Below, in pieces: positions 57,357 to 62,320 of a stretch of 64,000 bases of DNA. Position 1 is the first letter of the stretch. Each line of letters opens with the position of its first letter. The stretch spans positions 1,798,001 to 1,862,000 of the forward strand of contig JAUKUA010000003.1 of the NCBI GenBank assembly GCA_030549175.1, read 5' to 3'. A model generated the notes under the pieces. That model worked only from the letters and a program-made list of their open reading frames with translations, was not told where the DNA came from and ran no database searches. Source of the DNA: Lasiosphaeris hirsuta (lineage: Eukaryota; Ascomycota; Sordariomycetes; Sordariales; Lasiosphaeriaceae). Position numbers and translations under genes: made by a program.

Positions 57357-60161
57357 TTAGGTTCCCTGGCCCTCCAAGGTCAGCAAAGTCGGATCGAGAG
57401 TCCTATGCATTGCCGTCCGCACACCAGTCTTCCCCGGCGCCCCTTGGATCATGTTTGGCTGAGCGGCCGCTGCCCGGATCATGTGTGACAGCCCATGATT
57501 AGGTGCTCCTGAGTTTCGCAAAACAGCTTTCGAGATGTTAGCCACCTCATCCAGCATCTCTTCATACTCGGGCTTCGGGTTTAGTGGTTGGAGTCCTTTT
57601 TGTTCGATGATCTTCCTTCGCCTCTCCATCATCTCCTCCATCATGCGCAACGCTGAACTTTTGTCCCCCAAATACGAGAAGGCCTTCATGGTGAACTTGT
57701 CGGGGCTCGAGCTCGCCTGCTCAGCACGCTGCAGCGCATCAACTGTCCCCTGCACATTCTGCGCGAGGGCGTGGCCGGCGATCAGTGTGTTCCATGTGAC
57801 GCGCGTCGGCTTGATTCCGTGCTCATTCATCTTTCGTAGCAAGCGCTCGCCCTGCTTAAACTGCTTGCGGGCCGTCAGTGCCTTGAGCATGATTGACCAC
57901 GTGAAGATGGATGGCGCTGGGTGCAGCTGAATATTGTGATGGTAACCGGCCGCGGGCCGTGCCGCGTCCACCAGCATGTCGCTCATCACGTCGAGCCCAA
58001 CTCGTAGCATGCCGTCGAATGCACTGAGCTCCATGATGACTGTGTCGTGGACCAGCGTTCCGTTCGCCCTGATGAACCCAGCCATCACCGGGTCGTTTTG
58101 TAACAAAAGTGTGCGGAACCGATGATAAAAGGTAATGATCGGGAATACACTGATAGAACTCTTGATATAGGCCATGATGATGGTGCAGAGCGTGTAGGGT
58201 TCTGGCTCGAGAACATGCTCCCTGGGCTGTATGCTCTCGACGAGCGAGGCTAGGTTCTGCTGAAAATCGGCAAAGTCTGACTGAAGGGGAGAAGCCTCCG
58301 GCGTGGTTTCTAGATGTGATTTAATAACATCTGCTTGTAGGAGAGTCTCGAGCGGCTTTGTGTTGAAAACCTTTGCGTACGCCTTTATTATGAGGGGAAA
58401 GGCTACATGGAAAAGGTGCCGTCGTTCGTCATATGGTCGCTTATCGCCACCTGTATCACTTCCCGTACCCGTATCAAAGGTACAAGCATATAGGATGCTA
58501 TGTATCACATCGTTCCAAAATGGCTTGTCATCAGCTAATGTTGGTGAGTTTTGCACTTGCTGGACAATCTCAATAATGGACTTGAGGTCCCCAACCAGCT
58601 TGCATCCATTCAAGAGCACCGAGAAGAGGTGCATATCAGGCTCGATATCTCGCTCCCGCATGATTCTGTAGACTTGCCAGGCATTCTGCATGTCTTTGTC
58701 AAGAGTCAGAACTCGGATTATGGCCGTGAAGGTGATGACGTTTGGCTCGATCCCGAGTTCTAGGAGGCCCTCGTATAGCTCCCTAATAGTTTCGCCGTCC
58801 AGCTCTTCCCGTGCATAACGCGTGGGGTATGACAGGATGGACGTGCATAGAGCAAGGCCGTGGGGCCCGTTGAGCTTGAAGCCATCGTCATGTACCAAAT
58901 CTTGAAGGATCGCTAGGGCCGTTCTCTTGTAGAGGGGATCCTTCGCAAATACGGATGCAAACTGCAGCTTTGTATAGCCGTTGATCGGATGATCGTGGAT
59001 TTTGAGCTCCATGAAGATGTCCAGTAAAGTCTTGCCATCACCCGCTCGGGTTGCCCAGTAGAGCACGTTCTGTGGTATGACGCCATGCGCTGGGACATAC
59101 TCTGGGGAGCTGTTGTGAAGGATGTGGAGGAGCAGACCATGGAGTTTGGCGAGGTGCTCAGGCTGTTGTTCGGGCGATGAACTCCTATATTGCTGAATGA
59201 AGAAATTGAGGCAATCCTTCACCACATGGACCGGCGACGCCTCTTCCTCAAAGGTTGCCACGAGAACTTCATGAAACCTATCGGGAGCGAGTTGAAGGGC
59301 GTCGGCCATGACGTGTTGCCAACCAGCTATGCGGTTCTCCTTGGGCTGCTGGAACCATATCACCCTCATCGCCTCGACGCCTTGTAGCGGGAGAAGACTC
59401 TGTAGCTGTATCTGGCCCTGATCTAAATTCCTCGGGTGGATGTGTTTCAAGTCTCTCGAGTGAGAAACTCGTCCGGCCAGAAGTACATCCCAAGCATCTC
59501 TGAACGCCCTCTTCCAGATCCGAAACCGCCGCTTTGCATTCAGCTTGTCACCAGGGTCTGTAATGACATTCAAGAGGCTCAAGTCTCGAATCCGTTCCGA
59601 GTCTGCGCGGGTTCCCTGGTAGACTCGCAAGTCGCTACCGGGCGGTTTTGGAAAGGGGTAGTATTCAGGGCGAATACCTCGATATTGAATTCGACGTGGA
59701 AAGGGGCTAGAACGGGGGCGACCTAGTGGTCGAAGAGGTGTTGCGGTCTCTGCTAGAGCTTCGGAGGCGGTGTCTGGCTGATTCAGGGTGGTATCCGTCG
59801 ATATCACCTGCGGAGACTGAGGTGATGTGTCTTTGAAAGCATAGTCAAGTGTGGGCTCGCTGAATGATTCTGTTGAGGGGAGGTCTGGTTGGTTCAGGTG
59901 AACTGTACTGGAGAACCCCTCGGGGGGTTCTGACGGTAGCCTCGGGGCGGCCTTGGAGCGCCTCAATGGGCGGCTTGGTGATTGCCCAACTTCCTCAAAT
60001 AGCTTCAAGAAGGTTTCTGGGTCAATGGGAGGATCAAGACTGGAGGTGCTCTTCAGTCGTCGTGATGGTCGAGCTCGAATTGGGAGAGATGCGAGCTGCC
60101 GTTGGATTCCGGTCAGACAGCAGCCGCGGAGGGGTCCTACCCGCTGCATCTCTTTGACCAT
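57357..60161 (-). CDS. large mitochondrial pentatricopeptide-repeat (PPR) protein
   Basis: Intronless gene of 934 residues. The N-terminus is rich in Arg and Ser and poor in acidic residues for the first 40 positions (CCLTGIQRQLASLPIRARPS), a typical mitochondrial presequence. PPR units are visible at about residues 465-520 (EPNVITFTAIIRVLTLDKDM, then WQVYRIMRERDIEPDMHLFS) and at about 765-830 (FTWSIMLKALTARKQFKQGE, RLLRKMNEHGIKPTRVTWNT). Helical repeat sequence fills most of the rest. Fungal PPR proteins of this size bind mitochondrial RNAs and act in processing, stability or translation; which RNA is bound cannot be told. The start is the first ATG of the frame. It shares a 351-bp divergent promoter with the Cwf18 gene. 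Confidence is high for family, none for the individual orthologue. Confidence 0.9.
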   Translation of the reverse strand: MVKEMQRVGPLRGCCLTGIQRQLASLPIRARPSRRLKSTSSLDPPIDPETFLKLFEEVGQSPSRPLRRSKAAPRLPSEPPEGFSSTVHLNQPDLPSTESFSEPTLDYAFKDTSPQSPQVISTDTTLNQPDTASEALAETATPLRPLGRPRSSPFPRRIQYRGIRPEYYPFPKPPGSDLRVYQGTRADSERIRDLSLLNVITDPGDKLNAKRRFRIWKRAFRDAWDVLLAGRVSHSRDLKHIHPRNLDQGQIQLQSLLPLQGVEAMRVIWFQQPKENRIAGWQHVMADALQLAPDRFHEVLVATFEEEASPVHVVKDCLNFFIQQYRSSSPEQQPEHLAKLHGLLLHILHNSSPEYVPAHGVIPQNVLYWATRAGDGKTLLDIFMELKIHDHPINGYTKLQFASVFAKDPLYKRTALAILQDLVHDDGFKLNGPHGLALCTSILSYPTRYAREELDGETIRELYEGLLELGIEPNVITFTAIIRVLTLDKDMQNAWQVYRIMRERDIEPDMHLFSVLLNGCKLVGDLKSIIEIVQQVQNSPTLADDKPFWNDVIHSILYACTFDTGTGSDTGGDKRPYDERRHLFHVAFPLIIKAYAKVFNTKPLETLLQADVIKSHLETTPEASPLQSDFADFQQNLASLVESIQPREHVLEPEPYTLCTIIMAYIKSSISVFPIITFYHRFRTLLLQNDPVMAGFIRANGTLVHDTVIMELSAFDGMLRVGLDVMSDMLVDAARPAAGYHHNIQLHPAPSIFTWSIMLKALTARKQFKQGERLLRKMNEHGIKPTRVTWNTLIAGHALAQNVQGTVDALQRAEQASSSPDKFTMKAFSYLGDKSSALRMMEEMMERRRKIIEQKGLQPLNPKPEYEEMLDEVANISKAVLRNSGAPNHGLSHMIRAAAAQPNMIQGAPGKTGVRTAMHRTLDPTLLTLEGQGT

Positions 60162-60512: not shown

Positions 60513-61193
60513 ATGTCATCCCACGCCGCCCTCAGCGCTGCCACGGACGACCGCAAAGCGCGCCTGGCCAAGCTCAAGTCGCTGAAGCGCAAACAGCCCG
60601 ACAACAGCAACGACGAGAACGACGAAGCCACCAGCACATACCCCTCCGACCCCCAACAGCAACAGCAACAGCAACAACAGCCAGAAAGCCCCCCATCTTC
60701 CTCGGTCGCGCGTCTGCATCTCTCAGGCCGCAATTACGACCCCGAGACACGCGGGCCCAAGCTCGGCTTCGAGGCGCCACCAACGCTCGCCCTCGCGGGG
60801 CCCACGCTTGAGGAACAGGCCGCTGATGTCGAGGACGAGTTGCGGCGGCAAGCAGCCGCTGATGCAAGCGACGATGCCGCAAATAAAGGCATTGATCTGT
60901 TCAAGCTGCAGCCCAAGAAGCCCAATTGGGACTTGAAGCGCGAGCTCAACCGGAAGCTCGAAGTGCTCAACGTCCGGACCGATAATGCCATCGCTAAGAT
61001 GGTGCGCGAGAGGCTGGCCGCCAAAAAGGCTGCTGCCGTGGCACAGGGTAGCGAGGTAGGGGCGAGTCAGGAAGATGGAGAGGGAGGTTTGTTGGAAGGG
61101 GCTGCGTTTGTCGAGGGGATGCGGTTGAGGGAGAAGGAAGAGGAGGAAGAGACGAGAAGGGAGCGGGAGGCTGAAGAGGCGGACTTGGCTTGA
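60513..61193 (+). CDS. cwf18: Cwf18/CCDC12 pre-mRNA splicing factor
   Basis: Intronless gene of 226 residues. It begins with a Lys/Arg/Ala helix (DDRKARLAKLKSLKRKQPD), then an acidic/polyQ stretch encoded by CAA/CAG repeats near 60650-60685. The conserved core is DLFKLQPKKPNWDLKRELNR (about residues 127-146), continuing as KLEVLNVRTDNAIAKMVRER; this is the Cwf18 family signature. The C-terminus is Glu/Arg-rich. Orthologues (S. pombe Cwf18, human CCDC12) are components of the spliceosome around the NineTeen complex and the activated B state, so a nuclear role in pre-mRNA splicing is well supported by family. The polyQ insertion is not part of the conserved family and may vary between strains. 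The gene is divergent from the PPR gene and convergent with the zinc-knuckle gene, 130 bp apart at their 3' ends. Confidence 0.92.
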   Translation: MSSHAALSAATDDRKARLAKLKSLKRKQPDNSNDENDEATSTYPSDPQQQQQQQQQPESPPSSSVARLHLSGRNYDPETRGPKLGFEAPPTLALAGPTLEEQAADVEDELRRQAAADASDDAANKGIDLFKLQPKKPNWDLKRELNRKLEVLNVRTDNAIAKMVRERLAAKKAAAVAQGSEVGASQEDGEGGLLEGAAFVEGMRLREKEEEEETRREREAEEADLA

Positions 61194-61323: not shown

Positions 61324-62320
61324 CTATCTACCCATATTCATTGCCTGTGTAAGCGCTAATCTCTTGCTGAAGGGGCTCAGACTTCGCTCGCGCGGCGGAG
61401 ATGGTTGTCGCTGTGGAGGTCGTGGCGGGGCACCGGTGTCTCGTGGAATGTGATCATTCCTATCCCGATATCGACCTGTCTTGAGCTGTTCCCTTCTGCC
61501 ATCCCTTCTAACCGTAGAGCGCGCCGGAGAGCGCACTGGAGATCTGGATCTGGAAATAGACCTGGAATAGCCACGCCTTGGTGGTGACACCTTTCCGTGG
61601 TCTCTACTGTAATAAGCCGCGGGGCGTCCGGGATGGGGCGAAGGTGAACGTCGTCGAACTGGCGAGATCCCCGTCGACAAGTGTCTTTCTGGGCTCCTTG
61701 AGGCTCTGCTGGAGTAGCGGTCGTCGGAGTTGACCGAGCGTTTGCGGCCGACAAATGGCCGGGGAGAGACGTCTCGCGAATCTCTGGGATCTCGAGATGC
61801 TCTGAGCGGTGATCTAGAAGCTCGCCTCGTGACCGGAGAGGGAGATCGAGTGGAGATGGTTGACACCGAGTCAGAAGAGTACGATCGCCGCCTCTTGGGT
61901 GGCGAATCTCTGGGAGTAGGCGAGTCTTCCTTTTCAAGTTCTCGTTTTCGAGCTCTCTCGGCTTCTTTTTTGGCTAGCTCTTCGTCGGCAACGCCTTTCC
62001 TGAACTTGGGTCAGAATGTGCACTTGAGAAATATGGCGATTAATGGCCTTACTTTCGCTGGAGGACATCCGGTACCTCATTTGTGAGTTTGGGGAGTAGT
62101 TTTGGGTTGCGCAGTTGCTGGGTACGAGATGGCCTGGGGACATAGGGCCTCTCTTGAGGAGCCGCCTTGCACTCATATGAGTAGTGTCGTTCTGAGGATG
62201 TTAGTTATGAGACACAGCAAACGGGTCGAGGGAATACATATCTCGTTTCAGGCACTTTTGGCACTGGACCGTTGCTGGGGTTCCTGTGGAAGGACCGCTG
62301 CGGCCTCGGGCGGAAAACAT
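61324..62320 (-). CDS. zinc-knuckle (CCHC) protein with RS-rich tail, ZCCHC10-like
   Basis: Three exons, 62320..62242, 62188..62053 and 61999..61324, give 296 residues. The zinc knuckle is CQKCLKRGHYSYEC (residues 20-33, CX2CX4HX4C), followed by ERPYVPRPSRTQQLRNPKL, which matches the ZCCHC10-type family (zf-CCHC_3). A short Glu/Lys helix (GVADEELAKKEAERARKREL) leads into about 190 residues rich in Ser-Arg, Ser-Pro and Arg, as in splicing-associated RS proteins. The second intron (62052..62000) is canonical. The first (62241..62189) must be read as AT-AC to give this knuckle; see the separate entry. RNA binding in the nucleus is the likely role, inferred from the knuckle and RS tail. If the first intron were spliced GT-AG with the nearest sites, the protein would stop after about 30 residues. 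Confidence 0.85.
62189..62241 (-). other. candidate U2-type AT-AC intron in the zinc-knuckle gene
   Basis: On the minus strand the 53-nt intron starts ATATGTATTCC and ends CTAACATCCTCAGAAC. The exon before ends with one base of a Gly codon (g) and the next exon begins ga, giving Arg-Gly-His inside the knuckle. The donor equals the common fungal GTATGT with the first G replaced by A, the last intron base is C instead of G, and a CTAAC branch site lies about 11 nt before the end. The CAG three bases earlier would give AT-AG and an extra residue, spoiling the CX4H spacing. No GT-AG pair keeps the frame and the knuckle. Confidence 0.75.

Follow-up and report, generated by a model that had tools for sequence, protein, structure and literature searches.

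An intron with AT-AC ends and U2-type splice signals very probably interrupts a zinc-knuckle gene of the filamentous ascomycete Lasiosphaeris hirsuta. It appears, from the predicted proteins of related fungi, to be an old intron, conserved across no fewer than six fungal classes. U2-type AT-AC introns are already known; what seems unusual here, on present sequence comparisons, is the depth of conservation. The intron lies at positions 62241..62189 (minus strand) of the window, by which we mean the whole 64,000-nucleotide stretch analyzed (contig JAUKUA010000003.1, positions 1,798,001 to 1,862,000). A first-pass annotation, made from the letters alone, had proposed the AT-AC reading; the age and spread of the intron go beyond it.

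The zinc-knuckle gene and its first intron

The gene, on the minus strand, starts with an ATG at 62320 and ends with a stop at 61324; its product has 296 amino acids. Exon 1 (62242..62320) extends from the ATG to CGAG (MFSARGRSG...CQKCLKR-G) and meets the intron in phase 1, inside a Gly codon of the zinc knuckle. The AT-AC intron (intron 1; 62189..62241) is 53 nt long and reads ATATGT...CTAAC...CAGAAC, flanked by AAACGAG at the end of exon 1 and GACAC at the start of exon 2. Its 5′ splice site, ATATGT (62236..62241), is a U2-type donor with A instead of G at base 1, as read here and as deduced in relatives. The branch site CTAAC (62200..62204), for which CTRAC is codable at 11–12 nt in relatives, has its presumed branch A at 62201, and the distance from this A to the final intron base is 12 nt. 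The 3′ splice site AC lies at 62189..62190, and a CAG upstream of it (62192..62194, 9 nt from the presumed branch A) is apparently unused. Exon 2 (62053..62188) supplies the second half of the knuckle, beginning HYSYECKAAPQERPYVPRPSRTQQL. It is followed by intron 2 (62000..62052), an ordinary 53-nt GT-AG intron with GTAAGG...CTGAC...CAG, and by exon 3 (61324..61999), a Ser/Arg-rich tail that continues to the stop. All of these features are on the minus strand.

The spliced product matches the Pfam family zf-CCHC_3 (PF13917) over residues 16–55 with 68.5 bits, against a gathering cut-off of 27 (E 4.6e-19), and may act in RNA processing. When the 44.4-Mb genome of the same organism was searched with the protein, matches were obtained at this locus only. 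The extreme C-terminus (61324..61392, minus strand), RERSLSPFSKRLALTQAMNMGR, contains a stretch of columns that do not vary when nine relatives are aligned, and is preceded by a low-complexity tail. The convergent neighbor is a single open frame on the plus strand (60513..61193); its earlier identification as the splicing factor gene cwf18 is supported by Pfam (PF08315, E 4.7e-44). Farther along, a minus-strand open frame of 934 amino acids (57357..60161) possibly encodes a protein of the pentatricopeptide-repeat type, judged by eye.

To place the splice, cuts were enumerated in 62320..62053, with the donor 60–109 nt in, the acceptor up to 179 nt in and an intron of at least 30 nt. Thirteen cuts preserve CX2CX4HX4C together with an open frame. 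The AT-AC cut alone among them has ends of the GT-AG, GC-AG or AT-AC class, and it alone yields CLKRGHYSYEC, with the RGH found in relatives and in the deposited protein described below. It cannot slide, because an A follows CGAG and a C precedes GACAC. Beyond it, the frame stays open through the GT-AG intron (62052..62000) to the stop at 61324. The first-pass claims that an AT...AC reading restores the knuckle and a frame closing through two more exons are thus both confirmed. One other cut of the 13 has GA-AG ends and a product with KQRH; GA-AG is named among rare non-canonical end combinations in Fusarium (PMC3577648). The knuckle motif is intact in 101 of the 120 best-matching relatives from the first protein search (described below), and in 87 of these it is exactly CQKCLKRGHYSYEC.

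A protein search also returned a deposited Lasiosphaeris hirsuta protein, P0001, of 296 amino acids and 100% identical to ours over the full length, so the AT-AC splice has already been annotated once by the depositors. Ordinary gene predictors seldom propose AT-AC introns, and for that reason transcript evidence probably stands behind the deposited model.

Intron ends deduced from the proteins of relatives

Three protein searches were made, with the spliced protein, a read-through protein and a version in which X replaced the intron. The best 120 matches of 878, of 496 and of 835, respectively, were taken, giving 280 different proteins in total. Queries 2 and 3 held Asp and Arg at the intron borders and so favor models of read-through shape. 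The knuckle is intact in 169 of the 280 fetched relatives and broken at or beside the AT-AC intron in 111, a ratio that is not a prevalence, since intact models (except P0001) fit AT-AC or GT-AG alike and some species are repeated. Public models named Neurospora crassa (P0020) and Podospora anserina (P0028) have a broken knuckle in which the AT-AC intron was not modeled.

Many of the broken models read straight through the intron; because such models translate it, its DNA can be deduced from their residues. With CGA G at the end of exon 1, a first intron base of G makes the following residue Gly, and an intron opening with AT or AC makes it Asp. On the acceptor side, a last intron base of G puts Gly before HYSYEC, and a last base of C (or A before GA/GG) puts Arg there. 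Every one of the 74 donor-readable models has Asp and therefore A as the first intron base; the donor-readable set rises to 75 with Leu allowed before Asp, and one additional match, P0045, was false, lying inside the intron, and was dropped. Both ends can be read in 69 models (66 distinct), and 67 of these show Asp...Arg, which makes the last base C or A, not G. The two exceptions are P0136, which ends in Ser, and P0159, which ends in Phe and is apparently spliced inside. Read-through models number 66 by one pattern and 67 when Leu before Asp is admitted (Venturia). In the first search, whose query was the spliced protein, 19 of 120 models are broken; Asp is found in 7 of the 7 that are readable and Arg in 19 of 19. 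A looser count gives Arg in 103 of 105 and takes in models that are not cleanly read through at the acceptor (P0031, P0165, P0175 and P0270 among them), so the stricter counts are used here.

The choice between C and A as the last base was narrowed using the 89 broken models in which the branch is codable at 11–12 nt. Arg ends 88 of them and Ser one; this supports C, because a last base of A gives Ser whenever the Gly codon is GGC or GGT. The Ser before HYSYEC in P0136, a metagenomic model, would imply a last base of A (AT-AA) in one lineage. Five models (Diplocarpon twice, Alectoria, Icmadophila and Cenococcum) have an exon that stops at the GT of +5/+6 as if this were the donor. Two of the five, P0271 and P0278, read Asp-Ile and then directly YEC (Asp-Ile-Tyr-Glu-Cys), which is probably explained by splicing at that same GT and not by an ATATCC donor. 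A different reading frame of exon 1 is used in eight models, and these fix +2 to +6 as T A Y G T (ten rows before two false ones, P0122 and P0251, were dropped).

Among the distinct read-through introns (n = 64), lengths range from 33 to 63 nt, with 51 or 54 nt in 48 of the 64; in-frame lengths are selected by the read-through approach. A is possible as the penultimate base in all 64, where 26.5% of inner residues would exclude it (P 2.7e-9 if the introns were independent, which the relatives are not). In 57 of the 64, CTRAC, read as Leu-Thr in one frame and as Ala/Ser/Pro/Thr then Asn/Asp in the other, is codable at a distance of 11–12 nt from the last base; in 1000 shuffles the mean was 3.3 and the maximum 10. 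For the remaining seven introns, CTRAC is codable elsewhere in three and nowhere in four. The donor was scored on 65 distinct introns, with P0136 among them. A purine is possible at +3 in 65/65 (background 0.59), G at +5 in 65/65 (background 0.70) and T at +6 in 54/65 (background 0.39). The relatives' donors are compatible with A, T (or C), purine, any base, G and mostly T. The interiors of these introns diverge while the ends stay. All of this conservation is back-translated from predicted and mutually related proteins, and the P values are only guides. A search of viral and genome contig collections for related loci matched no relative's DNA locus.

Read-throughs covering both ends come from Sordariomycetes (Podospora, Chaetomium, Colletotrichum), Leotiomycetes (Cudoniella), Eurotiomycetes (Penicillium), Dothideomycetes (Lasiodiplodia), Geoglossomycetes (Glutinoglossum) and Xylobotryomycetes (Cirrosporium); for Lecanoromycetes (Icmadophila), the evidence is from the donor side. 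Both ends were deduced in Podospora and Aspergillus, and the acceptor side in Neurospora (P0020). Lineages were looked up for seven species, Lasiosphaeris hirsuta included, and all belong to leotiomyceta; the classes given for genera outside these seven are those to which we take them to belong. Among the named matches listed, none was recognized from Pezizomycetes, Orbiliomycetes, yeasts or basidiomycetes, which leaves the sampled classes as the limit for dating the origin. The A/C ends would thus be an old shared state, dating at least from the common ancestor of the sampled classes. Conservation of the ends in orthologues had been put forward as a check in the first-pass annotation; by back-translation of the relatives' predicted proteins, A...C is kept.

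Gene models that disallow AT-AC introns break the zinc knuckle of this protein, and the error recurs. The same mistakes in predicted proteins are a tool, as they expose the ends of an intron without its DNA.

Splicing mechanism and persistence of the ends

We propose that the major (ordinary) spliceosome removes the AT-AC intron. U1, and then U6, would recognize ATATGT through the positions after base 1, and U2 would pair with the CTAAC branch. For the second step, the contact between intron ends would be one of A (first base) with C (last base), replacing G/G. Work on yeast mutants and animals indicates that an A/C contact of the terminal bases can stand in place of G/G. Here, the A-C contact would place the cut at the AC 12 nt from the branch A, bypassing the CAG at 9 nt.

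The same contact may account for the persistence of the ends. A change at one end would spoil the match, and a return to GT-AG would need two changes together. Such a trap has been proposed for animals: Lin et al. (2010; PMC2831892) argued that sodium-channel genes owe their U2-type AT-AC introns to U12-type AT-AC ancestors that gained a G at +5, and that these introns are trapped, switching requiring simultaneous changes at both ends. Conservation of the ends in the fungal intron while its interior diverges would result from the same trap as in the sodium-channel introns. It is possible, though we offer it tentatively, that the zinc-knuckle gene had an ancestral U12-type AT-AC intron that was moved to the major spliceosome by a +5 G around the time of minor-spliceosome loss and was then locked. 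This would be the rare route proposed for the sodium-channel introns (PMC2831892). If it is true, a U12-type intron would be expected at the same phase-1 position of the knuckle where minor introns persist.

The closest known counterparts are the U2-dependent AT-AC introns (type II; SCN4A intron 21 and those of other sodium-channel genes), which share the AT-AC ends, the +5 G and the lack of a U12-type donor. The major spliceosome is reported to be needed for human SCN4A intron 21 (PMC2831892). The intron described here differs in that it is found in another gene and kingdom, is 53 nt long, has CTAAC at a near-fixed distance, is known from sequence and resides in a lineage reported to be without U12 splicing. 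AT-AC introns in filamentous ascomycetes have also been reported: AT-AC junctions occur in RNA-seq data of Fusarium graminearum (PMC3577648), and in Trichoderma longibrachiatum they make up 69 of 14305 junctions (PMC4324775). The text consulted gives counts or kinds, without gene names or conservation, and one of the introns counted may be the one described here. In a literature search limited to titles and the beginnings of abstracts, with few subscription journals included, no report came up of a U2-type AT-AC intron that is conserved in Pezizomycotina. U2-type AT-AC introns are best known from animal sodium-channel genes, and the present case adds a compact 53-nt ascomycete example. The gene has relatives in laboratory-tractable genera, so that both the interaction of the first and last bases and the lock-in idea could be tested by simple mutation.

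Even with the AT-AC splice accepted, persistence might have another cause, namely selection that keeps the ends because they make a weak, regulated intron. Retention of the intron would break the knuckle, and splicing efficiency would then set the protein level, perhaps by self-regulation. The deep conservation of unusual ends around diverging interiors and the position inside the knuckle are in keeping with this proposal. A further point in its favor is that human ZCCHC10, which we presume to be a relative of this zinc-knuckle protein, appears among the listed interactors of FRA10AC1, a spliceosomal protein (PMC10048706). We nevertheless consider selection for regulation unlikely, as no conserved intron sequence beyond the splice signals was noticed when the read-throughs were inspected by eye, and the mutational trap accounts for persistence without regulation.

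Other readings of the splice and the spliceosomal RNAs

An intron that opens with AT and ends in AG at the CAG (62194..62192) would use the usual acceptor dinucleotide, located 3 nt upstream. This reading is highly unlikely. The protein would contain KRERH, making the C-to-H spacing of the knuckle one residue too long, whereas RGH is present in P0001 and in most of the intact relatives from the first search. In yeast, moreover, the second splicing step is hindered when base 1 is A and the last base is G, which also counts against AT-AG. The notion of a sequencing error or a strain-specific mutation disabling a GT-AG intron is scarcely credible: it has in its favor only the rarity of AT-AC introns (0.019% of annotated fungal introns; PMC7072748), and, in line with the first-pass argument against a sequencing error, the same A...C ends are deduced from predicted proteins of many other genomes in several classes.

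We also judge it exceedingly improbable that this is a U12-type AT-AC intron, spliced by the minor spliceosome. The terminal dinucleotides and the short, fixed distance from branch to AC (11–12 nt) are common to both types. The donor and branch consensus of U12-type introns are, however, absent: the donor is ATATGT and not ATATCCTT or RTATCCTT, and the branch is CTAAC (in the window, CATAACTAAC) and not TTCCTTRAC. The first-pass annotation had described a U2-type donor differing at base 1, a normal CTAAC branch and no U12 signals. Each of these holds in the window, where the branch is present at 62204..62200, and the comparison with relatives extends them. Besides the donor and branch counts given above, none of the 65 distinct introns reads Asp-Ile, as an ATATCC donor would require, and a G at +5 is incompatible with that donor; P0271 and P0278 fall outside this set.

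The genome was also examined for the spliceosomal RNAs. Neither U12 nor U6atac snRNA gave a match, which weighs little against a U12-type intron, since only some candidates were scored and control genomes gave none either. U6 was matched four times, with the ACAGAG box seen in three. For U1 there were seven matches (L013–L019; 41 of 871 candidates scored) with scores of 41–50 bits, none of which reaches the Rfam cut-off of 69.5. All seven have the canonical 5′ end ATACTTACCTTG with diverged bodies, so nothing points to a special U1; these sub-cut-off matches include no compensating U1 that could pair with an A at base 1. We take Cutaneotrichosporon oleaginosum to be a basidiomycete. It is the one fungus in which U12-type RNA genes were found in a study that drew no conclusion for fungi (PMC7072748). 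U12 splicing is reported to be missing from Ascomycota (PMC2846911, PMC10639083), the latter source adding that most if not all minor snRNAs were lost in the vast majority of these species.

A scan of the genome for a U12-like donor plus branch pattern matched 42 places, compared with three for the reversed control, an excess that on its face favors U12-type introns; by eye, many of the 42 are near-identical repeats. A dispersed AT-rich repeat occurs on many contigs, starting ATATCCTTACTATCC and ending GCCTTAAC or GCCTTGAC, and inflates searches for U12-type patterns.
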